The position numbers and the translations under genes are program-made. 64,000 bases of DNA. Source: Geosiphon pyriformis. Lineage: Eukaryota > Glomeromycota > Glomeromycetes > Archaeosporales > Geosiphonaceae. A model generated the notes under the pieces. That model was not told the DNA's origin. It ran no database searches and saw only the letters and a program-made list of their open reading frames with translations. The DNA lies in assembly GCA_016748015.1 (NCBI GenBank), contig JAAOMT010000134.1:198184-262183 (forward strand). Reading direction: 5' to 3'. Positions 7,191 to 27,606 of the stretch are shown here, one piece after another. Positions within the stretch are counted from its first letter, which is position 1. Every line of letters begins with the position of its first letter.

Positions 7191-7689
7191 TATATTTGTT
7201 GTTATGATAAAATAATATTTATTGTTAATAATATTTAATAATTATTATTATTATATAAATTATTATCTTTTTAAAATTATTATTATATTATATTATAATT
7301 AAATATATTATTTATAACTCTTATTAAATTTTTGAATTATAATATTATATATTTATTTATAATATTAATAATATTGCAAAATAAATAAAATAATTAAAAA
7401 CAATTGTATTTTAGTTATATATATATATAATATTTTTTAAAATAATTTTTTTTTGTAGAATTATTTAAATTTAGTTTAAATTAAACTTATATTTAATTAT
7501 ATATAAAAATACATAAATTATATTTAATTTTAAAACTTATAATAATTATATTATATTAATATAAGAATACTATAATAATAATTTTAAAAAAATAATAATT
7601 TACATAATAATTATCAAATAATATTAATAATAAACACTATTTTGTAATAATAACAAATATTATATTATAATAATAATAAGTTGATATAA
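7191..7689. other. AT-rich spacer without recognisable gene
   Basis: About 500 bases of nearly pure A/T with many TAATA/TTATA runs. It lies just upstream of LINE A. I see no ORF, repeat partner or LTR edge. Part could be decayed LINE 5' UTR. Confidence 0.5.
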
Positions 7690-8085: not shown

Positions 8086-8600
8086 AGTAAGTATTATTTA
8101 AAAAAAATTAAAAATAATATATTATTTTATAAAATTATATATATATATATATAATAGTTTTAATATTAAAAAAAAACACCTATAATTTTAGTTATATTTT
8201 TGGTTTTATCTTTAAAAAACAATAAAAAAATATTTAATATCTAATAAATCTTTAATTAATTAAAAAAAATAAAAAAATAATATTAAGAATTAAATTATTA
8301 TTATAAATTTATTATAAAATTTACTTGTATTTATTCTTAAATAAAATTATTATTTATTAATTAAATTTTTTAAAAAATAATTTCAGATTAAAATTATTTT
8401 AATTATTATAAAATTATTGTTTTATTTAAAAAAAATGTTTGAAACTATTAATATTTTGTGTTTTTAAATTAAAAAAACATTTTAAACAATTGCAAAAATA
8501 ACTTTAAAAAAAATTTAATAATAGTAAATAAATTTTAGATTAGTTTTTAAAACAAAATATATTATATATAACAAAAATAAAACTTTTTTCTCTTGTTAAT
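8086..8600. repeat. AT-rich spacer between LINE B 3' end and LINE C 5' end
   Basis: No gene is visible. The stretch is the partner of 1-480 in inverted orientation. Since both copies follow a LINE 3' end, the sequence may be a common insertion target or part of a head-to-tail LINE arrangement. Confidence 0.5.
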
Positions 8601-8715
8601 CTCTTGACCATAATGAAAACAAAATATATACCAAAATTATAACTTTCTCTTTTTTTTCCCTGTTTTTTCCCTAGTTATTTCTTTAAATATATTTTTATTT
8701 ATTGTAATAAAACCA

Positions 8716-9860: not shown

Positions 9861-9864
9861 TGTA
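9860..9864. repeat. Target-site duplication, left flank of G1 (ATGTA)
   Basis: ATGTA precedes the LTR start TGTTAT; ATGTG follows the other LTR end at 27607-27611. One transition apart. Confidence 0.6.
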
Positions 9865-10715
9865 TGTTATTACAGTTGATTATTTGGGGTCTCGAATCAA
9901 ATAACAAACTCGTAACTTGGTGCTCAAAAGCTATTTCCATTGATGATGTTCTGAAAGTGTTGTATCTGAAGGTTTTGATGGAGTCTTTTGTATAATGAAC
10001 AGAGATTCAATAGTTGTTTTATCTATAGCTTCCCAGACTTACAAGTCTGTCAATTTTTTTCTCGGCTTAGTGGCCAGCAATCCTCTGGTAAGTAATCCAT
10101 ATCTTCTGTATGTGTCCTATTCTCTTGCAGAGGTCTTTTACCAGGCAATCCTTGATGTTAGTAATCAGTGCTTTTAATCAATTGGTTAGTGCACAATAAC
10201 AAAATCACAGAAAATAAAGAAAATAAAGAAATCTAAAGAAATAAGCCAAGGCGATTTGCAGATTAGTATCCCATCAATAACCATAATCAAGAGCTATTGT
10301 TCCAGCATGGTTAAGTATCAATTACTATCAACATGAAGTGTTAATAGTGGAGGGTGGATTGAGATATGGAATGATTATTTATTTGATAATTGTGTTTTTA
10401 GGCTAAGGATTCTGTAATATTGATTCTGTCTTTTTTGTTTTTAACATTACTGCTATATATACATATTTGAGATTCCTTAATTCCTCAATTCCTTGTGACA
10501 GAAATCTTGGAATTTTTGGAATCCTGCAATTCCTGATGAGAGGAATCTTGGAATTCTGGAATCCTGCGATTCCTCGTCAGAGAATCCTGAAATTCCTGGA
10601 ATTCTGCAATTTTTCTAAGAGGAATCCTGGAATTCCATATTTACTACATCTACCTCTGATTGACTAATATTTACTGACTAATAATACTATATTTTCCTAT
10701 ATTCTATATGTAACA
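9865..10715 (-). repeat. G1 3' LTR (851 bp)
   Basis: It runs from TGTTAT (plus-strand left end) to GTAACA at 10710-10715, giving the TG...CA termini of LTRs. It pairs with 26765-27606; every substitution in the ~230 bases I compared is a transition, plus a 3-base indel. On the element's strand the tandem array lies upstream of a TATATATAG motif (plus-strand CTATATATAC near 10450), as expected of U3. Confidence 0.9.
10488..10637. repeat. ~40-bp tandem repeat in G1 LTR
   Basis: About 3.6 units of 40-41 bases, each with GGAATCCTGCAATTCC-like and TCCTGGAATTCC-like half palindromes. The other LTR (27382-27528) has the same array. The ORF reading through it is an artefact of the repeat. Confidence 0.75.
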
Positions 10716-10730
10716 TTATTCTCTCCTTTT
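10716..10730 (-). other. G1 polypurine tract
   Basis: On the element strand AAAAGGAGAG followed by AATAA ends at the 3' LTR start, the expected position for priming plus-strand DNA. Confidence 0.7.
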
Positions 10731-10737
10731 AATATTA

Positions 10738-11358
10738 AGCTCCGTTGAAATCTAATTCCTTTAATTCTCCTTCTTGAATTATTTCTTGAACTTCTTTTTT
10801 GAGTATTACTTGTGTTATTTGAATTTGTAATTTTTCAAATTGGGCATTGGTTATTTTTCCCAATTGATTACTTGTAACTGTGTCCATTGCTGTGTTGAGT
10901 AAGATTTCTGGTCGGTCTTAAAATCCCATATATAGCCGGTAAATGGCTCGAGCTTGTGTGGTTAGATTGTTCTTTCTCACAAATTGTTCCAGTTGTCTCA
11001 GTATTGTTGTGTCAAATAATCATTTTGTTTTGTTGGTGTACAAATTTTGTATATTTACGTGTTGTTCCAAGTAGAAATAGCAATAGTTTTTTGGAAATTG
11101 TTGCATCCACCAAGTCCAATTTTTTCTAGTAAGTTCTTGGTGTAGTCAGACTATTTGTTGTTCTTTTATGGCCACTTTTATCTTGGTCATAATCTTGTCA
11201 ACAACATTTTCAAGTCTTTTCTGTACTTTGTGTTGTAGTATCTTTGCCGTATTTTTGTAATGAATAGTTTGTTGATTGATTGTAATTTCTATTTCCTGGT
11301 GTTGAATTAATTGAAAAATTTGTTGGGCTAGTGAATAGATATTGTCTGTAATTTCCAT
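10738..11358 (-). pseudogene. G1 ORF downstream of integrase, unknown function
   Basis: One reading frame from ATG at 11358 runs to a TAA near the polypurine tract, about 206 codons, interrupted by three stops. Those seen as TGA or TAA sit where Trp or Gln would fit. The predicted protein is helical and rich in Gln, Ile and Glu (QQLRQLEQ-like runs, then TQARAIYRLYMGF). G2 (15126-15818) and G3 (52782-53390) have ORFs in the same position, with a weakly similar 'aRaiyRLy.gf..' segment. No signal peptide or membrane segment is evident, so an envelope protein is unlikely. The function is unknown. Confidence 0.6.
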
Positions 11359-11457
11359 TTTTCTGATCTCTTCTGTTATGTCAACTATGTTTTTTATATA
11401 TTCTTTTGTCGATCAATTGGACATATTGTTGTTGATGATAATTATTGGTTCTAGATC

Positions 11458-12795
11458 TCATGGAATTTCATCTGGTTGGACTAGTATTTTCTGTACTCTC
11501 AATTGTGGAATATTATTGGTAGATGCTGATGCTATCTGGTGATATGGTTTCAGTTGATTATCATGTGCTGCTTTGGCTAAGATTCTGTTGTCTAGTCTTA
11601 ATTTGTAAGCTTCATTTCCTAGAATTTCTTTTATGTGAAATAGTTTATCCCATTTGGGGTCGAATTTTCCACTCCATTGTTTTTCCACTTTGGTACAATG
11701 TAGTAATACTTTGTCTTCAATCTTGAATTTAACTGGTTTGTCTGGTAGTTGACTATCGTGTCTTTCTTTCTGTTTTTTTTGTGACTTTTGAATATTATCA
11801 GCTGCTCTTTTTTGTTTGTTTTCCAATGTTTTCATTAAGTCATATGTTTTTCTTAGCAATGTTTCTTGAAAATTTTCTTCTGTTATTGGTTCAGCTAGAT
11901 ATGTATTAATTTCTCTCTTTACTGGTAATGTTGCTGTTCTACCATATACTAATTCAAATAGTATTGCTTGTGTAGTATCTTGCTTCATTGTCCAATAAGC
12001 AAATAATACTAATGGTATGAACAAATCCCATTCATCCTGGTTTTCTTGGCTGAGTTTGGCAATTGTTTCACACAATGTTCTATTAAATCTTTCAACTAGA
12101 CTATTTGTTTGTGGATGATATAATGATAATAGTGGTCTCTTAATTCCGAATCTCTGGCTTAATTCTGCTAATGTTCTATTCACAAAGTGGGTTTCTTGGT
12201 CTGATAATAGTTCTTTTGGACATCTATGTCGACAGATCAAATCTTGATGAATGAATTTGGCAACGGATTCTGCATCCACTCTTTGAATTGCTTTCGCCTC
12301 TGGCCATTTAGTGAGATAGTTCATGGCTACTGCTATATATCTGTTTCCTCTGCTGGTAATTGTTAATGGTTCGACTAAATCAATTCTAATCTGGTCAAAT
12401 GGTTGTCCCATTTTGATTGGTCTTAATGGTTTACTGGGTTTTGTTCCTCCTCTTTGCTGACAAGCATCACAATTTTGAACATATTGAATAATGTCTGGGT
12501 ACATTAATGGCCAATAATATCTCTTTCTGGTTCTTTTCATGATTGCTTTTTTGTGAAAATGTCCTGCTGTTGGATTTGAGTGCATGTTAAATAATATGGT
12601 ATCTTTTTCTGACTTTGTAATTACTTTGGTTGGTTGATCTGGATTCCTTCTATTTTTCCGATAAAGTATATTTTGGTAAGTGATAAAATATTTTGATTGT
12701 TGTTTGATACTCTTTTGTTCTGTTTGAAATAAATTCTCCTTGAACTGTTGAGTGGTTATATAATGTTGAAGTTGTTGATATTTTTGTATGTTCAT
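11458..12795 (-). CDS. G1 integrase
   Basis: An open frame of 445 codons. An HHCC zinc domain is visible (HSNPTAGHFHKK, then CDACQQRGG). The catalytic core has Asp in IRIDLVEPL, Asp in LLSDQETHF and Glu in NSLVERFNRTL, so the DDE triad is complete. The C-terminal part (FKIEDKVLLHCTKVEKQWSG, KLFHIKEILGNEAYKLRLDN) is the usual Gypsy integrase C-terminal SH3-like region; I see no chromodomain. It joins element cDNA to host DNA. It sits after RNase H, as in Ty3/Gypsy. Confidence 0.93.
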   Translation of the reverse strand: MNIQKYQQLQHYITTQQFKENLFQTEQKSIKQQSKYFITYQNILYRKNRRNPDQPTKVITKSEKDTILFNMHSNPTAGHFHKKAIMKRTRKRYYWPLMYPDIIQYVQNCDACQQRGGTKPSKPLRPIKMGQPFDQIRIDLVEPLTITSRGNRYIAVAMNYLTKWPEAKAIQRVDAESVAKFIHQDLICRHRCPKELLSDQETHFVNRTLAELSQRFGIKRPLLSLYHPQTNSLVERFNRTLCETIAKLSQENQDEWDLFIPLVLFAYWTMKQDTTQAILFELVYGRTATLPVKREINTYLAEPITEENFQETLLRKTYDLMKTLENKQKRAADNIQKSQKKQKERHDSQLPDKPVKFKIEDKVLLHCTKVEKQWSGKFDPKWDKLFHIKEILGNEAYKLRLDNRILAKAAHDNQLKPYHQIASASTNNIPQLRVQKILVQPDEIP

Positions 12796-12956
12796 CTTTT
12801 ATTGTATTTTTCATTGGTATTGTTCTGGTTTTTGTTATATTTTTGGGTTTTAAAATGTTTTTAGATTTGTTTTATTCATGACAAACCGTCAGCATTTCTG
12901 TTGTCTTTTTCTTTCTTATAGTGTATAGTATAAGTATATCATAATAGTGCCATTTT

Positions 12957-13289
12957 CTATCTGGATTGGTGGCCATCATCAAATTCTTGCTTTTGAAGCG
13001 ACGTTAACCCTTTATAATCCGTGTATATATCAAACTTTTGGCTCAAGTATTTGTTCCACTTCATGACTGCCCAATAGATTGCCAAATGTTCTAGTTCTGG
13101 TGTTCTATAGTTCTTTTCGGCTGGTGTTAGACCTTGGCTGGCATAAGCTACTGAATGTTCTCTGCCATCTGGTTCCTTCTGAGATAGTACTGCTCTCAAT
13201 GCTTGGCCTGAAGCATCGGTGGTAATAATAAATGGTTTGTTGTAATCTGGGTAGATCAGTACTGGAGCTTGAATGAGCTTTCTTTTCAA
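12957..13289 (-). pseudogene. G1 RNase H
   Basis: The frame begins KRKLIQAPVLIYPDYNKPF. ITTDASGQALRAVLSQKEP holds the first catalytic Asp, and TPELEHLAIYWAVMKWNKYL holds the Glu. The third motif is YTDYKGL where TDHKAL is usual. The frame stops at 12957 and about 160 bases to the integrase start are disrupted. It is the RNase H that follows RT in Gypsy pol. Confidence 0.88.
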
Positions 13290-13319
13290 AATATCAAAAG
13301 TTTCTTGTTGACTTTTTGT

Positions 13320-14290
13320 TCATTCATATTTGGTATTCTTGGTTTGCAGATTATTGAATGGTTGAGCTATCTTTGAAAAGTTCTTTATAAAGCATTGATA
13401 ATAACTTGCAAATTCCAAGAATGATTTCAATTCAGTCACATTGGTTAGTACTGGAAAGTTCTTTACTATCTCTATTTTCTCTGAATCCATTTTGATGCTG
13501 TCTTTACTGACTATATGTCCCAAGAATTTTAGTTCTGTCTTGCCAAAGAAGCACTTTGTTGCATTTAACTTTAGTCCTGCTCTTTTTAGTCTTTCAAACA
13601 CTTGTTGAAGATGATGAAGATGATCATCAAATGTTTTTGAGAATACATTGGTGTCATCCAAATATACAATTACTGATTTCCACAATAAGCCAGTATAAAC
13701 AATTTCTATTAGCTATTGGAAAGTGGCTGGGGTGTTGGTCAAGCCAAATGGCATCACTTCAAATTCGAAATTCCCTTCTCTAGTGGTGAATGCTGTCTTC
13801 TCTTTGTCAGCTGAATTTATGGCTACTTGCCAATAACCACTATCTAAGTCTAATGTTGAGAACCATTTGTTTCCGCCAAAAGCATCAAATAATTTCTGTA
13901 TTTGTGGAGTTGAATAGCTGTCTTTACGAGTTATACTGTTGAGTTTTCTGTAATCCACACAAAATTGGATTTTCTCATTCTTTTTATGGACAAGTACTAC
14001 TGGTGACAATCATGGACTCATTGATAGTTGAATTAGCCCATTGTCAAGCATTCAGTTTATTTCTTGACAAATAATCTTGTGGCTGGCTGGCAGCACTCTG
14101 TATGCTCTTTGTTTGATTGGCATTGCATCTCCAGTCTTGATCTGATGCTGGATGATGTTAGTTCGGCCAAACTCATTTTCACTGGCAAAAATGTCATTGA
14201 AATTGTTGAGCAACATCTTGAGCTACATACATTGGAGTGGATCTAAGTTTCCCATGTTCATTTGTTCTAATTGTTCTGGTTAGAACAAAT
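13320..14290 (-). pseudogene. G1 reverse transcriptase
   Basis: The RT core is in one frame with a few stops. Frame 13713-14009 gives VVLVHKKNEKIQFCVDYRKL, STLDLDSGYWQV and VMPFGLTNTPATFQ, followed by a stop. Frame 13320-13685 gives SVIVYLDDTNVFSKTFDDHL with intact YLDD, then FFGKTELKFLGHIVSKD and LEFASYYQCFIKNFSKIAQP. The fingers upstream (14010-14290) read IKTGDAMPIKQRAYRVLPASH in the same frame. The active site is intact; stops prevent full-length translation. Confidence 0.92.
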
Positions 14291-14478
14291 AACATTCATC
14301 TCGTCCATAGATTGTTTGTGATGTGATGTCAACATATCCACAAAGTTGTGGAAAGTCTGGAATGGGGTTTGGTGGTTGGTCTTCTATTTCTATGGTTAAA
14401 TATCTGATGGTAGTTCCTTTTGGTATGTTAATGATATTGCCAGTGTTGTTGTAGATAGGAATTTTTATGCAGCTATAG
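14291..14478 (-). pseudogene. G1 linker before RT, downstream of dUTPase
   Basis: The frame reads from the G2 edge toward RT (KIPIYNNTGNIINIPKGTT, then PQLCGYVDITSQTIYGRDE). It continues the sequence at 22099-22310 that follows the dUTPase, so the two are one coding stretch separated by G2. Family not recognised. G3 has an equivalent stretch around 49330-49720. Confidence 0.6.
14475..14478. repeat. Target-site duplication of G2, left (ATAG)
   Basis: ATAG directly precedes TGTTACGGG; ATAG directly follows the other LTR end TAACA at 22099-22102. Confidence 0.6.
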
Positions 14479-15156
14479 TGTTACGGGTTGAAGTAACAAG
14501 CTAACGGATAGCAAGAGAGAACAGTATTGTATGGTGATGGAAATAAACAAAGAAGAAATTACAATAAGGGAGCAAATTGAATAAGTAGGAATTCAATGTG
14601 CATGATCAGTCTCATAAAAATCACAGTCGCTAATCTTTTCTTAAATCTAAAGGTAGAAGAATAGTCCATAATTGTCAACAAGATAACACTGCTGCTATTA
14701 TTCTATGCCTCAACTCGGCGATTCTTAGAATCAATAACAGGTATCATTGTACTTTTTAATCATTTTTTTATTCAATAAATTACAAGAGCAAGCCAATTGC
14801 TTTTCAGGCTAATTCTAACAAATACAAATCAAGAAGGGGAAAAGATAAGATATGTGAATGCCAACAAGTAGATACTTGAAGATAAGAAAAGGAGAATAAG
14901 CAATTATGAGAGGAAGTAATTAATATTGTTTATTTTGTTACTTTGATCATGTCTTTCTACAGCTAAGGGAATCATCACTTATATAGCTATCTAAAATGGT
15001 CAATGACCAGGTCAATGATCAGGTCAATGATCAGATCAATGGTCAGGTCATTGATTAGGTCAATGATCACTATCTAAAAATAGGGTGGCTAATTATATGA
15101 CATCAGTGGCTAATACATGTGATAATTAATAAAAACTATGTGTTTCAACCATAACA
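14479..15156 (-). repeat. G2 3' LTR (678 bp)
   Basis: It runs from TGTTACGGG to ATAACA and pairs with 21457-22098. It has six 12-base minisatellite units against three in the partner. Confidence 0.92.
14998..15069. repeat. 12-bp minisatellite, six units
   Basis: The consensus is GGTCAATGATCA. Units 1, 4 and 5 carry mostly transition variants. The partner LTR has three units at 21976-22011, which accounts exactly for the 36-base LTR length difference. Confidence 0.85.
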
Positions 15157-15818
15157 TCATCCTCTCCAAAGAGATTGAGCTCTGGCGAAATCAAACTATT
15201 TATGGGATAGTCTATGTAAAGGGTTTTGTCTAACTCAAAACTAACTAGTCTGTTGAAGTCTTTTGTGGATAGAATATATAGTACTTGAGACAAAATAAGC
15301 TTTGTATCCAAGAGACCAAATCTTTGTATAAGAGTTCTGGCTCTTCTTGCAATGGTCAAAACTCTTGGGACATCTAAATGTATAATGCCCAAAATTTCCA
15401 CTTGTATCTCTGAAGTTGTTTTCTTCATGAGCTTCATGTCTTCTATGATTTCACCAAGACAACCATAGAGTTCTAGTTGTCTTCCATATGACAAGTTTTT
15501 GTCTATGGGCAAGATTTCTTGTATTGTTTTTCCAATTGTGCTGGAAGGTAAAAGTATCACTGCTGTTATGCTTTCCAGCAGGTATTTATCCATTTTGCCA
15601 CCAATTCTTTCTCTTCTGGTAGTTGTTTTCTTTGGTCTAATAACAGTGTGAGTTCCACTGTTGTCTGTTATAGTGGTTTGTTTTCCGATAGTCAGAGTAG
15701 CATTTGGATAGTTTTTAATCCAGTACTCATGGAGAGTATAGAAAGCATTTTGAATGTTTGATCCAGGAAATAATTGTTCATGTTGATTGAAGATACCTCT
15801 GTTTTGGGAATAGTGCAT
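15126..15818 (-). CDS. G2 3' ORF, unknown function
   Basis: An intact frame of 230 codons, starting MHYSQNRGIFNQHEQ, lies downstream of integrase. It runs through the purine tract and 31 bases into the 3' LTR. A basic Thr/Arg patch (PKKTTTRRERIGGKMDKYL) is followed by a long helical part (LSYGRQLELYGCLGEIIED, then ARRARTLIQRFGLLDTKLIL). I see no signal peptide, membrane helix or cleavage site, so it is not envelope-like. It may be a late gag-like or accessory protein. It is the best preserved of the 3' ORFs and its lack of stops amid decayed neighbours is notable. Family not recognised. Confidence 0.7.
   Translation of the reverse strand: MHYSQNRGIFNQHEQLFPGSNIQNAFYTLHEYWIKNYPNATLTIGKQTTITDNSGTHTVIRPKKTTTRRERIGGKMDKYLLESITAVILLPSSTIGKTIQEILPIDKNLSYGRQLELYGCLGEIIEDMKLMKKTTSEIQVEILGIIHLDVPRVLTIARRARTLIQRFGLLDTKLILSQVLYILSTKDFNRLVSFELDKTLYIDYPINSLISPELNLFGEDDVMVETHSFY
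15157..15170 (-). other. G2 polypurine tract
   Basis: TTTGGAGAGGATGA on the element strand sits directly before the 3' LTR start TGTTATGG. It lies inside the coding sequence of the 3' ORF. Confidence 0.65.
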
Positions 15819-15945
15819 TTATTTATATCTAATTTTTGCTGATCATTTGGGTCGGTATTATCACAACAAGTAACCAATCAGGTCGTTTGTGATATTTTTT
15901 GAGTCGCGTGCCATAAACAGGGCAATCACTGAATATTGTTCTATA

Positions 15946-17141
15946 TTAATCTTGTAAGATATAAGAACCATTGTTCAAAACTTTGTTGACTATAAAAGAT
16001 CTTTTCCACTGGCTAGAGAATTTATTACCATAGACATTGTCTCTGTCTGAATGGTATTCCAAAACTAAGTCACCAACACTTAAGAAAAGTGTTTTATAGG
16101 TCTTTTTCTTTTTGAGCTTCTCTTGGAACTGTTTTATCTTTTCAAAGGCAATTATCCGTGCTTCTACCAATGAGTCAAGAATGGTACCTAGTCTTCTTTG
16201 CAAATGTCCTTGTAATCTCCTATTGTTATTTCTTCAAAAGGTATTGTTTCTATATCCATTTCTATTGATAAAGTTGCCATTTGTCCATAGAGCAGATAAA
16301 AGGGTTCATAACTTGTTATGTCATGATTCACAGTTCTGTAAGCAAACAAGGCTGAAGGCAATACTTTGTCCCATAGGTTGGTTTCTTCACTGGTTTTGGC
16401 TAAGGTTTCACATAGTGTTCTATTAAAATGTTCCACTAGGTTATTTGTTTTGGGGTGATAAGGGGAAGAGAGTTTATGACATATTCCCATTTTTCTGCAA
16501 AGTTCTTCAACCAGTGTACTGAGAAAAGCTCTTCCTCTGTTAGATAAAAGTTTTTTGAAACAGCCATGGTGACAAATGATATCTTTATAAATAAAATTGG
16601 CAATTGAGACTGCTGTTTGATCTGGGGTGGCTTTTGCTTCTACCCACTTTGTAAGATAGTTGGTAGCTGTAATAATGTATCTGTTGCCATCAGGAGTTAC
16701 TGTTAAAGGTCTAACAATATCTATACCAATTCTATCAAATGGTTGACCAATAGAGATTGGATGGATATCTTCCTTGCGATTGGGTTTTTCTCTTCTTTGG
16801 CAGGTATTACAGATTTTGATGTATTCAGCAATGTCTTTTCCCAAGGTAGGCCAATAATAGCGAACTAAAGTTTTCTGAATTGTTTTTGTTTTTCCAAAGT
16901 GTCCAGCTAATGGATCAGTGTGCATATTGTAGATCACAATTTCTCTTTCTTCAAATCTAATGACTCTCTGGGGGCAGTCAGGATCTTTTCTATTTCTTTT
17001 ATATAATTGGTTCTGGCAAATCAAATAGAAATTTGATTGTTTGTGCAAATGTTCTCTTTGCTGTCGAGTATAGTCTGGCGGGTATTGTCCTTTACCCAAA
17101 AATTTCATTAAAGCAGAGTAGTTGTCCAAGTCCATTATCAT
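15946..17141 (-). pseudogene. G2 integrase
   Basis: The frame 16188-17141 (317 codons) gives the zinc domain (HTDPLAGHFGKTK, then CNTCQRRE) and catalytic core. The first Asp is in IGIDIVRPL and the Glu in NNLVEHFNRTL. The second catalytic Asp is changed: KLLSNRGRAF reads SNRG where SDRG is usual, a G-to-A change. A frameshift near 16195 moves the C-terminal part to 15946-16203 (KIKQFQEKLKKKKTYKTLFL, VGDLVLEYHSDRDNVYGNKF). It is probably inactive. Confidence 0.9.
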
Positions 17142-17602
17142 GTTTGTTTGTGGGGAAGTTACAAATAATTAAGTTGGTTTGGTTTGAGAGGGTTTTACTA
17201 TCACTGGATGGTAAGTCTGGAGAGAGCATTGGTGTTTTGATGATTAGCTCCTTTGTGGTGTTGAATGTCATAGTCGAATTCGTCCAAGTGGAGTATTCAG
17301 CGAGTTATCCGTTTATGTTCCAGGTTTCTTTTGTTGTGTAGCCAAACCAAAGCTTGGTGATCTGTTACCACCAAAAATTTCACACCCTTAAGATATTTGT
17401 CCCAGTAGCTGGTAGCCCAAACTACTGCTAAGCATTCCTGCTCAGTAACTGAGTAGTTCCTTTCTGCTGGTGTGAGAGTTCTACTGGCATATGCTACAGT
17501 GTGTTCTCTGTTATCTTCATCTTTTTGGGAAAGAACAGCACCAAGTCCATAGCCAGATGCATCAGTGTGGAGGATAAAAGGTTGATCCAAATTAGGTTGC
17601 AT
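17142..17602 (-). pseudogene. G2 RNase H and connection
   Basis: The open part 17297-17602 has FILHTDASGYGLGAVLSQKD (first Asp), VTEQECLAVVWATSYWDKYL (Glu) and FLVVTDHQALVWLHN (third Asp). All three acidic motifs are intact. The frame continues past a stop into FDYDIQHHKGANHQNTNALS, the usual connection to integrase in Gypsy pol. Confidence 0.92.
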
Positions 17603-17695
17603 GAGGATGGGTTCTGTAACCAGTTTTTCCTTCAGAATTTCAAATGCTTTTTGTTGATGAGTGCCCCAGTGATAATTGATGTTTTTCCTAAGTAG

Positions 17696-18480
17696 CTAAT
17701 TGAGAGGAGCAGCAATTTTGGAGAAATCCTTGACAAACTTGCGATAATAAGAGGCCAAACCAAGAAAAGAGCGTAGTTCATGAACATTCATTGATTGTCT
17801 AATGTTTTGAACTTTTTCAATTTTGGCTGGATCAGGGAAGATTCCATTTTTTGTAATAAGATGGCCAAGGAACTGGGTGGATTGACATCCAAAGAATGAT
17901 TTGATTGGATTGATCTTGAGACCAGCATTTCTAAGGAGGTCAAAAACCTTTTGCAAATGTTCAAGGTGTTCATCCCAGGTTTTTGAGTACACCATTATGT
18001 CGTCCAAGTAGACTAGAACAAAGTTTTTTTTTACTGATTCAAATACTTTGTCCATTAAGCGTTGAAATGTGGGAGGAGCATTTGTGAGACCAAAAAGCAT
18101 GACTGTAAATTCGTAGGTACCATACTTGGTGATGAAGGCAGTTTTCTTTCTGCTTTCTGGATCCATCTCTACTTGCTAAAATCCAGCAGTTAAGTCAATG
18201 GTTGAGAAGAAAGTGGCACCATGGAATTGGTCTAGCATTGCATCAATCTTGGGAAATGGGTACATGTCTCTTTCAGTAATGGCATTTAATTGGAGATAGT
18301 CAACACAAAAGCATAAGATTCTTTTTTTCTTGGATACCACTACAACTGGGAATGCCCATTCACTCTTGGTTTCCTGTATAAATCCAAGAGTTTTCATTCG
18401 GGTTATTTCTTTTTTGATAAACTCATCATTGTGCCAGTTGGATTAATAGGGCTTCAAATGGATGGGGCGAGTTTCTTTGG
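17696..18480 (-). pseudogene. G2 reverse transcriptase
   Basis: Frame 18176-18397 has VVVVSKKKRILCFCVDYLQL, PKIDAMLDQFHGATFFSTID and LTAGF, then a TAG where Trp is expected. Frame 17696-18166 continues with KKTAFITKYGTYEFTVMLFG, FVLVYLDDIMVYSKTWDEHL (YLDD intact) and SFLGLASYYRKFVKDFSKIA. The upstream fingers are between 18400 and 18480. One or two stops separate otherwise intact pieces. Confidence 0.93.
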
Positions 18481-18498
18481 TGATGATGGTGTGTTGTA

Positions 18499-19804
18499 TC
18501 ACATGTGATGTCTAGGAGGTTCACCTTCTTTTGAAATAACTGGGCTGTTTCTAGCCAGTAGATTTTCAATGTCTACTTTTCTTTTTTCTGGAGAGGGTTC
18601 TCTTTGTTTTACAACCAGTGATTGGATTTCAGGTGGTTCGTTTTCAAAGGACTTTTGGACTTCTTTTATTTCCTCTTGGGGTATCAAGCTGATTGGTTTC
18701 CAATCTTTGTAATAGATCAGACAGGACATGCATTCATCGCTAGGAGAATACAATGGTTTGTCGCACCAGCACCAGGCACAAGGACCATGCCACCAATAAC
18801 TGTATTTGGCTTTCTTGCCTGGCTTTCTGTTAAAAGTTCTTCTGAGCATGTCATAATAAGGCCAGCAGATCAGCTTGCCATTGACAATAATTCTTTCTTT
18901 ATCTGCCTTGACATTATCCAGTGGTTTGCCATTGCTAATAAAGATTGTATAAGCGAGTTTAGCAGTTTCTTTTTGTTCTTTTTGTTCTTCTTCTTCCTCA
19001 CTTTCTTCATCATCTGATTCATCTGATTCATTTTCTTCTGGGCTCTGCTTGGATACTAGGGGAGTTGTCCAATGGCGACACTTAACCACAATGAGTTTTT
19101 CACCACATCTGATAGTTAGTTTACAGAGTTCATAATTAAGTAAAGCCTTTGCTTTCTTGAGCCATTCATTGCCAACAATGATGGTGTATTCTTTTGCTTC
19201 AGACACTTCCATATCAGTTTCAATGCTGATACCATTGATGTGAACAGGAATAGCTTTGGCTATGCCAAGCCCTTTTTTCTTATTACCATGCACATTGGTC
19301 ATTGGTCATTGGTCATGTGGATGGTTCATCAATTTTTCTGCCAATTGCTTCAAGAAAGTGTTTGACAATAACACTAACAGATAATCTACTGTCTAGGATC
19401 AAATCAATGAAGTAGCCAGCCACTTGGACTTTACAAATTAGAGGAATGACATTGCTATTGTCAACAAGTTCAGCTTGGCGAGAGCATTTGTTGGTTTTGA
19501 GTGTCTTTTTCTTTGGAATCAGGGATTTGTGAAGATCTTTTCTGAATTGTGGATGGGTCATCAATTAGCCAAAGGTTATATGTGCTGGGGTTTCCATAAG
19601 GTCTTTGACAACAGAATAGAGACCGGATTTTTGTACTATTTCTGGGGGTTCCAACTTTGGAGGGTTCTTGAAAACTTTGGCTTTTGGGGGCTCATTGTTG
19701 TCAGCAATTGATGTAGAAGTTTTATTGGGGTTTAGAACAAAATCAACTTTGGCTTTCTTCTTCTTTCTTGTGGATTCAGAGGGGTTGATTGCTAATTCAT
19801 TCAT
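18499..19804 (-). pseudogene. G2 protease with acidic and Cys-rich insert
   Basis: Frames 19565-19804, 19313-19564 and 18499-19302 read as one polyprotein stretch. The retropepsin site is FIDLILDSRLSVSVI, with DSG changed to DSR. A second conserved part is YTIIVGNEWLKKAKALLNYE. It is followed by an acidic run (EENESDESDDEESEEEEEQ) and a Cys-rich element, CAWCWCDKPLYSPSDECMSC, that could bind zinc. This insert lies where the dUTPase-bearing families have their cassette, but it differs in sequence and no dUTPase motifs are seen. Confidence 0.8.
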
Positions 19805-19922
19805 GTCATGGTCATCATCAGTTAAGTTAAAAGTGTAAAAGGGGTTTTCTTCTGGTTGGCTTGCACTCTTACCCTTTGGAGGTGCGCCTACCAGTTTAAA
19901 GGCTGATAAACAGTGGCTTCAA

Positions 19923-21302
19923 CTAGGAGATTCTCTCCAAAAAATTGATGTTGGCATGATTGGGTCTTTGGTTGGACACATTGTTGTTGTTAATCCTGTT
20001 GTTCTGAGCATCATTGTTTCTGGGAACTGGTGGAGGCAGTAGAGAATTGTTGCAATCTCTTGAAAAGTGTCCAGTTAATCCACAGTGATAGTATACAGGT
20101 GGGCCACGATTTTGTTGTCTTTGATAAGGTGGTTGTTGGGGCTGATTGAAGCGTGGTTCAAATCTGGGTCTTTGTGGTTGCTGATTTTCTCTGACTGCTT
20201 GGGCTAAGGGTTCTAATAACCGAGCAAGATTTGCTGTGAGTCTGTCTATTAACTGTTTATTTGGATCTTGAGTGTGAGTGGCAAAAGAAGTAGCAGCCAT
20301 TTAAGAGACAGGAGCCATGACAGGAACAGGAGCAAAAACTGATAGTGTAGATCCCAAGTGCATCTTTTGGTTGTTTTCAATTCTTTGTGCTAATTCAATG
20401 GCCATATCTATGGTGGGATTATTTTTCAGGGCCAGGAGGGGCCAAAGAGCATATAATAGATCAGTTCTTAATCCTTTTGTGAAAGAGTGAATTTTCTGCT
20501 CTTCTGTCCAATTTCTTCCAGTGTCTACTTGTTTAATTAACTTTCTGATTGCTTTGGCGTATTTGGTTACAATTTCACTGGGACCTTGGGTTCTTTCCAA
20601 TTCCATATGCCATTTTGATATTAATATTGGGATTCTGAACTTGTTTTCAACATTTGCTGGTGTCCATCTAACGATTTTTTGCTGGGCATTGGCATCTGTT
20701 TCTTGTGAGAACCAAGTAGCAGGAGATCCTTGAAGGTAGCCACCGACAATTTGGAATTTGTACTCATCATTATATTGATTGGCTGTAGTGGCTCTTTTAA
20801 AGTCATCCAACCATTCAATTGGATCTTGTGCATCATTTCTAAATAATGGTATTGGGGTGTTGTTTCTTCACTCTAGAGCAGTTTGTATATCTTGGAGGAC
20901 GGCCAGAATGTTTGCTTGCATGGGGTCATTAGCCATTGGTTCAGGGGTAACTGTTTGTGTAGACGAGTCTGATTCGCTTGATAAAAGATCAAAAACAGGG
21001 GCAGTTTGGTAGCTTTCTTCTTCTGTTTCAAAGAAAGTTTCAGTTGCTTGATGGGCAGCAATCCAAATGTGGATTTGATGATTCAGATATTCGAAATCAA
21101 GAGGCTGTTGTTTAAAGGTTGCAGAATATAAGAGCTGATTAATACTGTTGTTTCTTTCTTCAAAGTCGTTTTCAAAATAAGCTTGGTCAAAGTAATAGGT
21201 TGTATAAGCTGTGTAGGTTTCAGCTGAATGCTCATTCAGGAACCAGTTCCAAAAGTCTTGGAATTGTCTACTGGATTGTTCTTCAAGGGGGAAGCAGATC
21301 AA
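19923..21302 (-). pseudogene. G2 gag with damaged zinc knuckle
   Basis: A single frame from ATG at 21302 runs to about 19923 with two in-frame stops near 20868 and 20301. The matrix-like N-terminus has acidic EETE and EESD runs. The capsid-like retrotransposon-gag region has IEWLDDFKRATTANQYNDEY, GGYLQGSPATWFSQETDANA and YAKAIRKLIKQVDTGRNWTE. The C-terminal part is Gln/Pro/Arg-rich. The nucleocapsid knuckle reads YYHCGLTGHFSRDC, so the first Cys of C-x2-C-x4-H-x4-C is Tyr (TGT to TAT). Confidence 0.9.
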
Positions 21303-21433
21303 GCAGAAGGGCAGAGAATTAAGTTCAATGAAACTTTGGTCGTTTCTGTTGTGTGCTGCAAAGTGTTCTTCTGATTACTGTGGCAGATATGAGTAATCAC
21401 CCATACAATAAGGGAATAAGTGAATTTTGACAA

Positions 21434-21450
21434 CCTCACAGGGAGCACTA
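21434..21450 (-). other. G2 primer-binding site
   Basis: TAGTGCTCCCTGTGAGG on the element strand, six bases from the 5' LTR, closely resembles the G1 site TGGTGCTTCCTGTGAAG. TAG for TGG is a G-to-A change of the part pairing with tRNA CCA. Confidence 0.65.
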
Positions 21451-21456
21451 CTTTTA

Positions 21457-22098
21457 TGTTATGGGTTGGAGTAACAAGCTAATGGATAGCAAGGGAGAAC
21501 AGTATTGTATGGTGATGGAAATAAACAAAGAAGAAATTACAATAAGGGAGCAAATTGAATAAGTAGAAATTCAATGTGTGTGATCAGTTTCATAAAAATC
21601 ACAGTCGCTAATCTTTTCTTAAATCTGAAGGCAGAGGAATAGTCCGTGATTGTCAACAAGATAACATTGCTGCTATTATTCTATGTCTCAACTCGGCGAT
21701 TCTTAGAATCAATAACAGGTATCGTTGTACTTTTCAATTGTTTCTTTATTCAATGAATTACAAGAGCAAGCCAATTGCTTCTTAGGCTAATTCTAACAAA
21801 TACAAATCAAGAAGGGGAAAAAATAAGGTATGTGAATGCCAACAAGTAGATACTTGAAGATAAGGAAAGGGAAATAAGCAATTATGAGAAGAAGTAATTA
21901 ATATTGTTTATTTCATTACTTTGATCATGTCTTTCTACAGCTAAGGAAATTATCGCTTATATAGCTATCTAAAATGGTCAATAACCAGGTCAATGATCAG
22001 GTCAATGATCACTATCTAAAAATAGGATGGCTAATTATATGATATCAGTGGCTAATACATGTGATAATTAATAAAAACTATGTGTTTCAACCATAACA
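21457..22098 (-). repeat. G2 5' LTR (642 bp)
   Basis: It runs from TGTTATGGG to CCATAACA, with the minisatellite of three units at 21976-22011. Next to it on the element strand are the primer-binding site and gag. Confidence 0.92.
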
Positions 22099-22310
22099 AT
22101 AGCTTTTGGCTAATATGTGGAGATTGATCAGCCCAATCTTTTCTGATTTACAAAGGTTTGCTTCCGCTTCAAAAATATGTTCTTGCTCCTTTTCTTTCTT
22201 TTCTATTGCTAGTATGTACTGACTATATGGTGGAATAGAAATAACTTGACTGGTTGAGATAATTTCTCCTTGGCCAACAATTTTTTCCTTTGCCATATTA
22301 ACTGGTACAT
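22099..22310 (-). pseudogene. G1 segment between dUTPase and G2 insertion
   Basis: The frame MAKEKIVGQGEIISTSQVIS continues with the Glu/Lys run EKKEKEQEHIFEAEANLC. It follows the dUTPase domain and, across G2, joins 14291-14478. Family not recognised. Confidence 0.6.
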
Positions 22311-22700
22311 CTATTCTACTGTTGACCCAAATTCCTGTATCCCTCTTGCTGTTATTCCCAATTCCTTCCTTGTTCCCATTTCCACTAAGCTGGCTATTTT
22401 GACTAATGGCAGGAATATGGCATATGCTATCTTTTCATTTGGCTCAATTGTATAGGCTTTTTCTGAGTCATTTTGTAGCATGGCACTAATATTTCTTGTA
22501 TATCTTGCATCTACTATTTCCCCTCTAATATTAATCTCCTTCTTTGCTAAACTACTCCTAGATGCTAAAAGAACCATGGTTGTTGCTGAAATCTCTAGAG
22601 CTATTTTCAAATCAATGCATACTCATGCATTTGGTTCCAATTTGATGGCATCTTTTCCTGGATATCTTAGATCAAACTCTGCATCAGTATCATGCGCTCA
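22311..22700 (-). pseudogene. G1 dUTPase domain in pol
   Basis: A trimeric-type dUTPase fold is recognisable from all five motifs in order: DTDAEFDLRY (1), ASRSSLAKKEINI (2), GEIVDARYTRNISAMLQN (3), YTIEPNEKIAYAIFLPL (4) and ARGIQEFGSTVE (5). The family hydrolyses dUTP to dUMP and keeps uracil out of DNA. Conserved Gly residues are Glu or Arg at four places (GFD to EFD, KGI to KEI, AGY to ARY, GFG to EFG), all single G-to-A changes, so this copy is probably dead. A stop precedes it and another lies inside (near 22625). It lies between protease and RT. Confidence 0.88.
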
Positions 22701-23237
22701 TTCTGGCCTGATGCTTTTGCTATTGTCATTGTACCATTTCAACTCCTGTTCTTTGGAGAGGTTTGGTAAAGCGATGTATTGTTTATAGTTAGGATTGGAG
22801 TCTGAATTGTTAATATTTTTATTGCCACATTGCGTGGAACTGGAACCAGTGTTTTCATTGTTATTGTTGTTGGAGTTTGAATCGGAATTGTAAACTAATT
22901 CTGATTCTGATGTGCAGCTGTTGATTGGTTCCTCTTCCTTAGGAATCATGTAGATTATGTGTGGTGGTGGATTGTAGATAAGATCACACTTATCACAATA
23001 TTGGAAGTCACATGGAATTAAACAGTGATCACATAATCTGGTGTTTATTTCTTCTAAGCATTGCACCTGTTCCTCCCTTGTGGGTGCTAATTCCTGGTAA
23101 TATTTGTGGAATTGCTCTGGATCTAGAAGATTTATGACTAGTTCTGGGTCCCAGTCAAGTTCTATGGGCTCTAAAGAATTGTTCTTGATTTCTCTAATCT
23201 CTTCGGGTGTTGCTCCTTCTATTTTGGCAATTGCCAT
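22698..23237 (-). CDS. G1 zinc-ribbon-like segment with Asn/Ser linker
   Basis: An open frame of 179 codons. The first third is acidic (ELDWDPELVINLLDPEQFHK). It is followed by a Cys pair arrangement, LCDHCLIPCDFQYCDKC (C-x2-C-x4-C-x5-C-x2-C), that could hold zinc. A low-complexity Asn/Ser linker leads to KQYIALPNLSKEQELKWYND, directly before the dUTPase. G1b has the same arrangement at 62097-62513 and G3 a shorter form (LCKECIMPCNDK) near 48690. Family not recognised. Confidence 0.7.
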   Translation of the reverse strand: MAIAKIEGATPEEIREIKNNSLEPIELDWDPELVINLLDPEQFHKYYQELAPTREEQVQCLEEINTRLCDHCLIPCDFQYCDKCDLIYNPPPHIIYMIPKEEEPINSCTSESELVYNSDSNSNNNNNENTGSSSTQCGNKNINNSDSNPNYKQYIALPNLSKEQELKWYNDNSKSIRPE

Positions 23238-23605
23238 TCTCCAAATTTCATTATTGTCATGTGGACAACTGTCCAGTTACTGCACAGCTCTTCTCCAGAC
23301 TGCTTCTATTAGGGTTTCTTTCCTTACCCAGTCGCTTATTAAAATTGTGTATTGACATAACACGTTGCATGTTCCTCCACATCCTAGGATGTTGTTCCAC
23401 ATCCCTTCATCTAGTAGGGTCTTCCCACAAGTGAGACAAGGTTGGTTATCTCATTTTTCTTGCCTCTTTGGTCGTCCAAAGCATTTGAGTAAGCATGGAT
23501 GACAGTAGAACTTTGTTGTAGCATGGTATTCCTCATCGTCATCACAACATGCACCCATTGACAACAGTTTCTTGCCACAATTAATGCATACAAGTCTTGG
23601 CCATC
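23238..23605 (-). pseudogene. G1 Cys-rich module after protease
   Basis: One frame with two stops carries at least twelve Cys in about 90 residues: CINCGKKLLSMGACC, FYCHPCLLKCFGRPKR, then CLTCGKTLLDEGMW, LGCGGTCNVLCQYTILISDW and VRKETLIEAVWRR. Spacing suggests two or more zinc-binding loops. Homologous modules occur in G3 (48160-48440) and G1b (61660-61900) at the same place between protease and dUTPase. The stops sit where Trp and Tyr or Gln would fit. No named domain recognised. Confidence 0.65.
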
Positions 23606-23765
23606 AATAATTAGATTGTTGTGGAGTGTGGTGAGTGTAGAAATTATAAATGGCAGCAGTTGGTGGCATTCCTTCTTCCTTTTTTTTTCCTTTTCCCTTA
23701 TCTTTGTTCCATTCCCAACTTGAGACTTCTTCTTGTTTGTTGTTGGTCCAAGTCAGATTATTGGT

Positions 23766-24300
23766 TTACCAAGTAAGTTTGTTTGTTTGCTTTCCTTTCC
23801 CATTGTCATCCCAAGAGAGTATTGGTGGCAGCTCATTGTGCTCTTCGTCAGCCCATAACACTTGGTAGGCTTCCCAGGTAGGTTTTGGTTTCTCTTCCTC
23901 AAAGTCAATTAGTGGTGCCATGGTGTTGGTAGCCTTGAAGTGGCCACACATTGCTGGTACTCGCATGTGTTGCCTGTTTTGGCTGAGTTGAAGCTCTTGT
24001 GTATTCCAGTCCAGAGTAGTGTTTGTCTTGGACAGCCAGTCATTACCAACTAGAGCTTGGTATTGGGTGGCTTCTATGACGAATACTTTGATTGGTACTA
24101 TGATACTGTTAATTTCGATTAGTAAGTCATTGATTTTGCCGATTGGAGTCTTGGTCACTCCATTAGCCATGATGATTCTGGCACTAGCAGTTTGATCAAC
24201 TTGGCGACCTAATTGATCCATGAGTTGTTATGTAATAATGCTGCCTGCTGAACCACTGTCAAGAATTAGTTTGATAGGATGGCCATCAATTTTCACATCA
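23766..24300 (-). pseudogene. G1 aspartic protease
   Basis: The active site IKLILDSGSAGSIIT holds DSG and is followed by a stop. The same domain continues in frame with GRQVDQTASARIIMANGVTK, FVIEATQYQALVGNDWLSK and TTLDWNTQELQLSQNRQHMR. This is the retropepsin that cleaves Gag-Pol. It follows the zinc knuckle directly, and the Cys-rich module follows it. The active site is intact. Confidence 0.88.
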
Positions 24301-25940
24301 GTATATATGGTGGTAATTGGCTTTTCTTCCAGTGCAGCTCCACTGAATAATGACATGATTGATGATTCCTCGAGTTTGAATGGAAAAATGGCATCCAGAG
24401 ATTTGTTTTCTGTGATTGTGGCAGGTAAAATATTGCTGGTAAGTATTTGTTTGAGTTCCTGGTTGTTGGGTATGGCATTTTCTGGAGTAACCAGAAGACT
24501 TAAATAGTTTTGGGAATTCAGGTTTTGGGTGGCGCCTGTACTCAAATTCCGAGAATGGGATCCTGAGCTTTGGTGAGAGGAGCTGAGGATTGGTTGATGA
24601 ACAACCATCGCCGATCTCCAATTTTGAGCAATTCTGGGTTTCGGGTTTCCTGATGTCATTGTAGCTGAGTTTTGGAGTGGTGTTTGGATTGATGGTTGAG
24701 ACTGATAAATTATTTGGGGCTGTGGCTGATAAATTACTGGAGGCTGCTGTTGATAAATTGCTGGTGGCTGTGGTTGATAAACTGGAGATTGATATACTGA
24801 TGGTTGATAGATTGGTTGCTGCATCATTGGCAGGTAAGTATTTTGATATTGGTCTTGATTTGGATAATAATTTGGAGTTTGGAACCAGCAATCGGGGTTT
24901 CTGTATTGATTTCTTGATTGTTGGTTGCTATAAATATGACAATTAACTCGAATATGGTCTTGTTTACCACAGTTATGGCAGACATGCATTTCTGGCTGTC
25001 ATGGCAGACTAGGTGCTATTGAGGATGATGGACGTGATTGATTTTGGAAATGATTCACGTTTCCTGAATTATTGTGTTATTGTGATAATTGATATATAGT
25101 GCAATTGTCAGCTAAGTATTTCTCTAATTTTTGATTAATTGACTTACTGAATTGTTTTAATTTAGAATCCAATTTAGATGATTCATTCATTACTAGGTTT
25201 ACTGCTTGGGCGTGGTTGGCTTCTAACTCAGCTGCTTCAAAATCTCTGGCATGTGTAATTGTGGTAGAGAGGTCAACTGGATGCATTAGGCGTACTTGCT
25301 GAAGGAGGTTACTGTGCAAACCTCTAATAAATTAGTTCAAAATCTGTGGCACTGTAAAATAGTCAGCTTGAATTGCTTGAATCTGGTGCAGATTTCTATG
25401 AAAGCATCCCAAGTAAGTAGTGACTGCTTCAGTATCTCCTTGTTTGATGGTGGTGAAGAGGTTGGCTAACTTGTTGATACTATTATTGTTGCTAAAATAT
25501 CTTACAAATTCCGTCTTGAAGTTATTAAAGATTTGGGGTTTGACAGCTAGACTTTGATATCATGCATCTGCAGTGTCCCTTAGAAAGTATGGGATGGCTT
25601 GAAGTGCTCAGGTGTCATTCCATTCATTTGTAGTAATGGCTTTCTCTACGTCATTCAGCCATACTTGTGCGTCATCTTCTTCACCGGTAAAGTTGTCAAG
25701 TTTTGTGATTGGTACGTAGGCCATTGGATCTAAGTTGGATTGTTGTGGTGGCTGTTGAAGCAGTTGTTGTTGTATTGGTTGTTGGGGTGGTAGTTGAAAT
25801 GGCTGTTGTAGAGGTTCAGCTACTGGATTAATTGGTGGTTGATTGATAACGATTACTGGAGGTAAGTTTTGTTGATTAATTAATTTGGGGTTTGGATTGT
25901 TCTGCCTTTGATGATTTGGAGTTTTGATTTCTGAATTTTT
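24228..25940 (-). pseudogene. G1 gag: capsid and nucleocapsid
   Basis: The capsid-like part reads YVPITKLDNFTGEEDDAQVW, then QVWLNDVEKAITTNEW and YLGCFHRNLHQIQAIQADYF, with several stops at Trp or Gln positions. Frame 25077-25319 has the helix QVRLMHPVDLSTTITHARDF. The nucleocapsid knuckle CHNCGKQDHIRVNC (24939-24980) is intact. It is followed by Tyr/Pro/Gln-rich repeats (IYQPSVYQSPVYQPQ) before the protease. Gag packages element RNA into particles. Confidence 0.85.
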
Positions 25941-26702
25941 TAGATTTAGATTTTGCTAAGCTTAAAGATTCAGGGTTCCAACTTCCAGGTTTTCAGTAAT
26001 TGGGTTTTGGTAAGTAAATTCTTGATCTTCTGATTCTTCTTCCTCTTCTTCTTCAAATAATTCTCATAGAATAGCAGTTCCAAAGTCTGGTTAAGACGGT
26101 GGTGATCGAATTTCTGATGGGGTTGGTGATCACAATTTAAATCTGTTGAAATATTTGCCGTATGGTTCTAATAGATCTGTTTTCTTTTGTTTACTTTGAG
26201 ATGGGAATTGTCTGAATGTTGATATCACATTTGATGTGGATGTGCTTGCTGATGTTATATTGATGATGCTTCTCGGTATGTAGTGATAGGATGGGGCAGT
26301 TGGTAATTCAACTTTTGTTTTCTTTCAAGTAGGTGGTTGTATCTTTTTGGGTGTTACTGCTGGTGTTTGTAGTTTTCTTTTGCCTTTATTGGCGTAAGTA
26401 ATTGGATATTTTTGTTGGGTGTGATGTTCAATTTCTTTGTTGATCTCAGTAATGATGGAGACAAAATTGTGATTTGTTGGCAAGTTGGTATTTTGAATTA
26501 ATTCTCTGTAGAAAGTTTCCCTGGCTGATTCAGTATTCACTGGTGTTCTTAACAAAAAGGAAATTTTTTCATTGACATAGAAATTAAAGACTGATTTGGC
26601 GGATATATGATTGTGGTTTAATTCCAAGTGTTGACAATAGTGTTGAAATAGGGATTTCACAAATCCTAAATGGTTTGCTCCTATGTTTTCTGATTCTGCC
26701 AC
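25941..26702 (-). pseudogene. G1 gag N-terminal region
   Basis: An open frame of 125 codons at 26325-26702 starts at a GTG (VAESENIGANHLGFVKSLFQ); no ATG is seen between it and the primer-binding site, so the ATG may be lost. It includes ISAKSVFNFYVNEKISFLL and ends in a basic tail. 25941-26324 continues in a broken frame with a Glu-rich stretch. G1b has the homologous N-terminus at 58760-59280 (ESAFSFYINKKIKFYLR). Confidence 0.7.
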
Positions 26703-26745
26703 TTTTGGTTTGGTGTTATCAGTGCTGGTTTTCTGTAGGATTAAA

Positions 26746-26762
26746 CTTCACAGGAAGCACCA
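26746..26762 (-). other. G1 primer-binding site
   Basis: TGGTGCTTCCTGTGAAG on the element strand, two bases inside the 5' LTR. It begins TGG, complementary to a tRNA 3' CCA end. The matching tRNA was not determined. Confidence 0.75.
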
Positions 26763-26764
26763 AA

Positions 26765-27606
26765 TGTTATAGTTGATTATTTGGAGTCTTGAATCAAATA
26801 ACAAATTCGTAACTTGGTGCTCAAAAGCTATTTCCATTGATGATGTTCTGAAAGTGTTGTATCTGAAGGTTTTAATGGAGTCCTTTGTATAATGGACAAA
26901 GATTCAATAGTTGTTTTATCCATAGCTTCCCAGACTCACAAGTCTGTCAATTCTTTTCTCGGCTTAGTGGCTGGCAATCCTCTGGTAAGTAATCCATATC
27001 TTCTGTATATGTCCTACCCTCTTGCAAGGGTCTTTTACTAGGCAATTCTTGACATCAGTAATTAGTGCTTTCAATCAATTGGTTAGTGCACAATAACAAA
27101 ATCACAGAAAATAAAGAAAATAAAGAAATCTAAAGAAATAAGCCAAGGTGATTTGCAGATTAGTATTCTGTCAATAGCCATAATTAAGAGCTATTGTTTC
27201 AGCGTGGTTAAGTATCAATTACTATTAACATGAAGTGTTGATAGTAAAGGGTGAATTGAGATATGGAATGATTATTTATTTAATGGTTGTGTTTCTAGGC
27301 TAAGGATTCTGTGGTATTGATTCTGTTTTTTCTGTTTCTACTGCTATATATACATATTTGAGATTCCTCAATTCCTTAATTACTTGTGACAGAAATCCTG
27401 AAATTCCTGGAATCCTGCGATTCCTGATGAGAGGAATTCTGAAATTCTGGAATCCTGCAATTCCTTGTCAGGGAATCCTGAAATTCTTGGAATCCTGCAA
27501 TTCCTCTAAGAGGAATTCTGGAATTCCACATTTACTACATCTACCTTTGATTGGCTAATATTTACTGACTAATAATACTATATTTTCTTATATTCTATGA
27601 GTAACA
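26765..27606 (-). repeat. G1 5' LTR (842 bp)
   Basis: It runs from TGTTATAG to GTAACA, partner of 9865-10715. A ~40-bp tandem array lies at 27382-27528. Confidence 0.92.
27382..27528. repeat. ~40-bp tandem repeat in G1 5' LTR
   Basis: Units of 41, 40, 40 and about 25 bases, each with GGAATCCTGCRATTCC, correspond to the array at 10488-10637. Confidence 0.75.

Follow-up and report, generated by a model that had tools for sequence, protein, structure and literature searches.

Trimeric-type dUTPase domains in the pol region of Ty3/Gypsy retrotransposons of Geosiphon pyriformis

Does a decayed Ty3/Gypsy element of the fungus Geosiphon pyriformis carry a genuine dUTPase between its protease and its reverse transcriptase (RT), and if so, where did the domain come from and what did it do? 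We studied this locus in a 64,000-nt stretch of contig JAAOMT010000134.1 (hereafter the window, to which all unprefixed coordinates refer). A sequence-only reading had placed a dUTPase domain at 22311–22700 in the pol of an element, G1, and had named a profile search, a structure prediction and a tree with host, viral and element dUTPases as ways of checking it. Translation of 22200–22850 confirmed the five dUTPase motifs, in order, on the minus strand, and the profile search returned a significant match, with PF00692 (Pfam dUTPase) hitting the 103-aa ORF at 22311–22622 at E 3.9e-11. NCBIfam TIGR00576 matched the same ORF at E 5e-14 and 52.2 bits, under its cut-off of 102.55; the ORF spans only positions 42–141 of the 143 in that profile. 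We also built a wider profile from 70 dUTPases, leaving out the window copy, and searched the window in six frames with shuffled frames as a chance control. The stretch scored 138.5 bits and the best shuffled frame 2.7 bits. By this profile the domain runs from 22320 to 22724 (minus strand), so that the interval first given clips its N-terminal end.

The window dUTPase is a real trimeric-type (PF00692) domain, but a broken one. Two in-frame TGA stops interrupt it (22700–22698 and 22625–22623), and the frame shifts at its end, near the TAG at 22313–22311. Its tail continues in a second frame at 22099–22395 (minus strand; tblastn with residues 392–490 of P0003, a protein of family C, the family to which G1 belongs; see below), together with the start of a conserved linker domain of ~110 aa. 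The catalytic-type Asp and Tyr of motif 3 are retained. Motifs 1 (AEFDL) and 5 (QEFGST) have Glu at columns where glycine is invariant in A4, a 10-row dUTPase alignment without the window copy, and the same Glu changes are present in some other family C copies.

G1 was delimited by its LTR pair and domain matches to 9864–27606, all of its parts lying on the minus strand. The 3′ LTR (9864–10715, TG...CA) and the 5′ LTR (26765–27606) are 90.9% identical over 9870–10715 and 26767–27606 (K2P 0.102; 73 transitions vs 6 transversions), and the outer flanks ATGTA and ATGTG form a 5-bp target duplication that differs at one base. The aspartic protease lies at 23946–24329 (tblastn with P0139 residues 6–133, E 2.1e-26); the gag-asp_proteas profile hit the ORF at 23766–24227 below cut-off (E 0.0027). 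A Cys-rich region with CxxC pairs and a QYTIL segment was found by translation in the protease–dUTPase interval, at approximately 22950–23645, and similar stretches occur in families A and C. A Pfam scan of this region gave nothing above cut-off; zf-HC5HC2H reached a sub-threshold E of 0.031 in family A. The rest of the linker, the RT and the RNase H occupy 12879–14477 (RVT_1 in ORF 13320–13712, E 5.4e-13; matches to L015 and P0139 extend to 12879), followed by the integrase at 11458–12798 (Integrase_H2C2, E 6.9e-18; rve, E 2.8e-08). The RT–RNase H match (14258–12879) is thus downstream of the dUTPase and the protease match (24329–23946) upstream, in agreement with the placement in pol proposed from the letters alone. 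With its LTR pair, its protease–RT–RNase H–integrase order and its short, once-mismatched target duplication, G1 is a Ty3/Gypsy element. No profile matched a gag in G1 itself. The end of the G1 integrase resembles SH3_Tf2-1 at a sub-threshold level, and a chromodomain was found in 0 of 5 integrase ORFs scanned at E ≤ 1 (G1, L021, L014, L023 and L025, two of these ORFs being short), so these five do not show the chromodomain after the integrase that marks chromoviruses. Between the G1 integrase and the 3′ LTR, which it almost reaches, we observed a further frame with several stops (10755–11455, minus strand).

A second Gypsy element, G2, without a dUTPase, is nested in G1 at 14479–22098 (7.6 kb, minus strand), with ATAG on both flanks and LTRs at 14479–15156 and 21457–22098 (K2P 0.066). 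The match to P0003 stops at residue 490 immediately ahead of G2 and resumes with residues 490–547 at 14477–14304, from which we conclude that G2 inserted between the dUTPase and the RT of G1. G2 gave matches for gag, RT, RNase H and integrase, as well as RVP_2 (protease) below cut-off; a six-frame profile search detected no dUTPase in it. Two in-frame TGA codons, the terminal frame change and the G2 insertion mark the G1 copy as inactive, a nested remnant left by a large lineage. Two more dUTPases are present in the window, both on the plus strand and each with a protease before it and an RT after it. One belongs to family B (48878–49288, 111.0 bits), in a Gypsy element matched from protease to RNase H over 47435–51124 and with an RT inside the family B clade. 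The other is decayed and falls in family C by best match (62486–62896, 86.9 bits), in an element whose match starts at 60924 and is cut off by the end of the window, past which the element runs. Elsewhere in the window, an endonuclease-like ORF of a possible LINE was seen at 4383–5297 (minus strand; Exo_endo_phos_2, E 0.00082, below cut-off).

Genome-wide, we found at least 300 dUTPase loci on 128 contigs. This count combines the 150 best matches for PF00692 with as many for the window protein, two sets that do not overlap, and is a lower bound, since scoring covered 150 of 3181 and 150 of 3843 candidates, respectively. The fetched copies, to which the classification applies, sort into three families, A, B and C. 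PF00692 matched a family A copy, L010, at 2.5e-27, and 29 of 150 scored loci reached the TIGR00576 cut-off. RT lay downstream of the dUTPase in 13 of 15 examined 10-kb contexts (20 were taken, and the remaining five contain N stretches), and one protein, P0125, unites gag, protease and dUTPase. The ~110-aa linker domain after the dUTPase aligns across families A, B and C (window parts 22099–22313 and 14304–14477); three of its sequences had no Pfam match. The ORF of L031, a family C copy on another contig, is 100% identical to a protein of Geosiphon pyriformis, a member of Glomeromycotina, with 95% of the query covered. In protein searches, all of the 120 matches listed out of 551 were from Geosiphon, as were 31 of 33 in a second search; P0148 as query gave 4 matches. 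Downstream of the family A dUTPase of L010, a LINE-type endonuclease–RT frame at 6531–8738 of that locus is probably another nested insertion.

To avoid choosing copies by their dUTPase, we sampled family C by its RT, taking 18 of 150 RT matches (about every seventh of the first ~121) and reading 901 bases upstream. A complete dUTPase was present in 15 of the 18 (among them L224, L224 and L046 being one and the same copy); one had a fragment, only the C-terminal end (L214), and two had none within the 901 bases (L217 and L230). For 14 of these copies (the two without dUTPase, the fragment and one with gaps were dropped), in-frame dN/dS was 0.274 (bootstrap 0.20–0.35), compared with 0.470 (0.33–0.61) and 0.597 (0.44–0.79) in the other two frames, the in-frame range overlapping slightly with that of the +1 frame. 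A second sample of 20 copies, consisting of 19 picked by protein similarity (one more was dropped for a gap) and the window copy, and hence biased to conserved copies, gave 0.230 in frame vs 0.524 and 0.691. Stops interrupted the dUTPase in 4 of the 14 and 6 of the 20 copies, respectively. The lower in-frame values point to past purifying selection on the dUTPase: selection probably preserved it in the lineages that replicated, whereas some of the copies are now decaying.

Is the conserved domain likely to fold and work as a dUTPase? For P0106, a relative of the window copy, an AlphaFold2 model had mean pLDDT values of 71–98 across 10-residue blocks of residues 71–200 and was poor outside the dUTPase (mean 59.1). 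All 50 PDB matches listed by Foldseek for this model were dUTPase entries (best E 1.8e-09), and matches in a viral structure library included badnavirus (Dioscorea bacilliform virus) and lentivirus proteins. The structure prediction thus gives a jelly-roll dUTPase fold for this relative. A model of P0003, made with alignment A3, reached a mean pLDDT of 47. Invariant across the 10 rows of A4 were the residues at the positions of the catalytic motif 3 Asp and Tyr, the motif 2 Ser, the motif 4 Gln and the motif 5 Phe. Motif 3 of the elements is Asp-x-Gly-Tyr instead of the canonical Asp-x-Asp-Tyr-Arg, and in L031 and L044, 2 of the 20 family C copies, Asn replaces the catalytic Asp. Enzymatic activity is a prediction from conserved residues, and the element dUTPase would presumably form trimers and act at the level of the particle. 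We also considered a tandem dUTPase, as the ~110-aa linker aligned with motifs 3–4 over 42 columns (hhalign E 0.02, probability 2.4%). We do not claim one, because this match is weak, the linker has no Pfam match and its model is of low confidence.

To place the element domains, we searched for the dUTPase gene of Geosiphon itself. Searches by profile and by protein (scoring 150 of 3371 and 150 of 3032 candidates) brought up element copies, and a strict motif-3 pattern had no match; a looser motif-3 pattern revealed the host gene (L053, G000:C262 near 402680). It has canonical motifs, five exons and four GT-AG introns, with the reading frame open over the domain, and scored 181.1 bits against TIGR00576. 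In a tree of 71 dUTPases, whose bootstrap was not fully settled and which took in 27 of 80 bacterial and 20 of 80 viral loci kept, L053 paired with PDB 4oop (100/88); 3so2, P0151 and P0152 fell in the same wider group (99/90). The three other cellular eukaryotic rows were PDB stretches, 3lqw, 3so2 and 4oop. Families A–C made up a single clade (93/91), with the metagenomic P0139 next to it (98/98) and apart from the host and other eukaryotic enzymes. L053 is therefore excluded as the donor of the element dUTPase; the tree singles out no other donor. Bacterial matches had 34–45% identity, a likeness that is partly selected, as they were retrieved by a pattern from the query alignment.

An 18-row RT tree, rooted on the single long branch of P0148 and with G1 alone representing family C (two of the 15 loci tried lacked a usable RT), likewise recovered an A–C clade (98/97), with G2 outside it and P0139 further out (98/94). 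Taken together, the simplest history compatible with both trees is one gain before P0139 and one loss in G2. The dUTPase was thus probably acquired a single time, in an ancestor shared by A, B, C and P0139, and G2 probably lost it. P0150–P0152, copia-like or LINE-like proteins, grouped with the eukaryotic enzymes and P0148 stood alone, indicating that retroelements gained dUTPases more than once. These three ENA proteins combine PF00692 with PF07727 (copia-type RT) or, in a LINE-like protein, with RVT_1.

We consider it most likely, with a probability of about 0.7, that the pol of these Geosiphon Ty3/Gypsy elements includes a trimeric-type dUTPase, gained once from a non-host donor, which hydrolysed dUTP in the particle of working ancestors. 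Their pol would have read gag – protease – Cys-rich region – dUTPase – linker – RT – RNase H – integrase, and the domain would most likely have been freed from the polyprotein, or active inside it, within the particle. There, or wherever reverse transcription took place, it could have converted dUTP to dUMP, so that the RT put no uracil into the cDNA at times when the host dUTPase was scarce or in another place. Excerpts of PMC2427051 describe dUTP misincorporation as affecting reverse-transcribing viruses, and retroviral dUTPases as thought to block dUTP incorporation where the cellular enzyme is low. The intact host gene is a point against this explanation. In addition, G2 and the two dUTPase-less copies among the 18, which may be truncations, suggest that the domain is dispensable in this host.

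The domain might instead have been kept for a non-catalytic role, in particle architecture, as a partner of RT or integrase, or as a dUTP-sensing switch. The non-canonical motif 3 would fit such a role, as would the bovine immunodeficiency virus, whose dUTPase-related gene is critical without dUTPase activity according to the title of PMC4261571; the best Foldseek PDB matches also include phage dUTPases titled signalling proteins, a similarity of fold only. We regard this as unlikely, given that the catalytic-type residues are invariant in A4 and that the 29 of 150 loci mentioned above exceed a dUTP diphosphatase cut-off. That the dUTPase is selfish baggage, gained once and carried without benefit, appears less probable still: the domain is missing from G2 and from 2 of 18 sampled copies, but in-frame dN/dS was lower in two samples, a result that disfavours idle carriage, and the clade is as old as the split of the three families. 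The sequence-only reading had itself raised the case of a host gene captured once, in the window copy only. Nothing in its favour was found in the searches made, and it is refuted to near certainty by the at least 300 loci, by the complete dUTPase in 15 of 18 RT-sampled copies, and by the five-exon L053, whose motifs are canonical and which groups with the eukaryotic PDB sequences, away from the elements.

The same reading had explained the domain as an adaptation to an AT-rich, deamination-prone genome. C-to-T decay is indeed strong here, and much of it lies outside CpG. CpG observed/expected in the window is 0.30. Differences per conserved C among copies were 0.605 before G and 0.10–0.14 before A, C or T, 20101 of 29263 transitions among copies fell outside CpG context, and ts/tv was 7.8. 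LTR differences were almost exclusively transitions (73:6 in G1 and 38:2 in G2), of which only 12 and 11 were in CpG-type context by simple count. Such decay, however, acts on integrated DNA and is no dUTP process, whereas a dUTPase acts on dUTP. The elements are also GC-richer than their surroundings (G1 0.357 and its dUTPase 0.375, against 0.291 and 0.246 in the 5-kb flanks), and G2, in the same genome and with a similar GC content of 0.370, does without the domain. The evidence weakens the proposed adaptive role, which we consider highly improbable. RIP was rejected as the cause of the stops, as per-site differences were lowest before A and highest before G. The RIP indices of element parts were 0.71 and 1.5, values that are not RIP-like by the usual thresholds. 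For Gigaspora margarita, the excerpted text of PMC8647823 states that RIP signatures were not detected.

LTR elements with a dUTPase between protease and RT have already been described from fungi, rotifers and planarians, and we compare these descriptions here as excerpted from the papers cited. PosPlaTy3-5, like G1, is a fungal LTR element with this arrangement, and dUTPase-bearing Gypsy elements occur in Postia, Phanerochaete and Tuber (PMC2864245). The dUTPase tree of that study covers chromodomain Gypsy elements, whereas none of the five Geosiphon integrases had a chromodomain, a comparison made by description only. The bdelloid rotifer elements Juno, Vesta and TelKA have a family-wide dUTPase at the same position (PMC5408684), and here too one family of the same host, Mag, lacks it. 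As a further likeness, Juno has an extra Zn knuckle near the dUTPase; in Geosiphon, it is a Cys-rich region that precedes the domain. Unlike the Geosiphon elements, three of the rotifer lineages are called rotifer-specific and have varied ORF3s. In planarians, Gypsy-like elements with a dUTPase-like PF00692 domain between protease and RT differ in being giant and in having further added domains (PMC6431247). PF00692 is enriched in Entomophthora muscae (PMC11105155), and a 2025 paper lists it among transposon-derived domains of Glomeromycotina (PMC11878562); both concern early-diverging fungi with transposon-linked PF00692 and, in the excerpted text, give domain counts with no element anatomy, tree or selection test. 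Thus, the domain is known from only some retroelements, as had been supposed, but "a few fungal elements" understates its range, which includes rotifers, planarians and Glomeromycotina. The badnavirus CYVBV has its dUTPase between a zinc finger and the protease, with a PHD finger near the protease (PMC5649073). Badnaviruses resemble G1 in being reverse-transcribing and in having a dUTPase near a zinc finger and protease, while CYVBV differs as a plant DNA virus whose dUTPase is not between protease and RT. Badnaviruses are also not known to encode an integrase. P0139, a metagenomic polyprotein (JGI), shares protease – dUTPase – RT – RNase H with families A–C and differs in having, as read from its sequence, no stretch like the ~110-aa linker between dUTPase and RT.

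Among the literature matches listed, a scope outside which the genome paper (Curr Biol 2021) falls, no paper described dUTPase elements of Geosiphon. Added here are their anatomy, copy number, selection test and ancestry, as well as the five integrases without chromodomain; they bring Glomeromycotina elements into the small set of retrotransposons that encode a dUTPase themselves and are no new kind of system. A bolder history is possible, though we hold it tentatively and rather doubt it: a dUTPase from outside the host, perhaps of bacterial or phage type and with Asp-x-Gly-Tyr, could have been acquired once in the distant past, have founded a very abundant Gypsy lineage and been selected through a split into at least three families despite the host dUTPase. 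If true, it would imply local, particle-level control of dUTP in a fungus that is multinucleate and goes through long periods without dividing; the neighbouring G2 lineage would then manage without the domain. As it stands, dUTPase-bearing and dUTPase-less related Gypsy lineages coexist in one host, which offers a natural comparison for the use of this enzyme to a retroelement.
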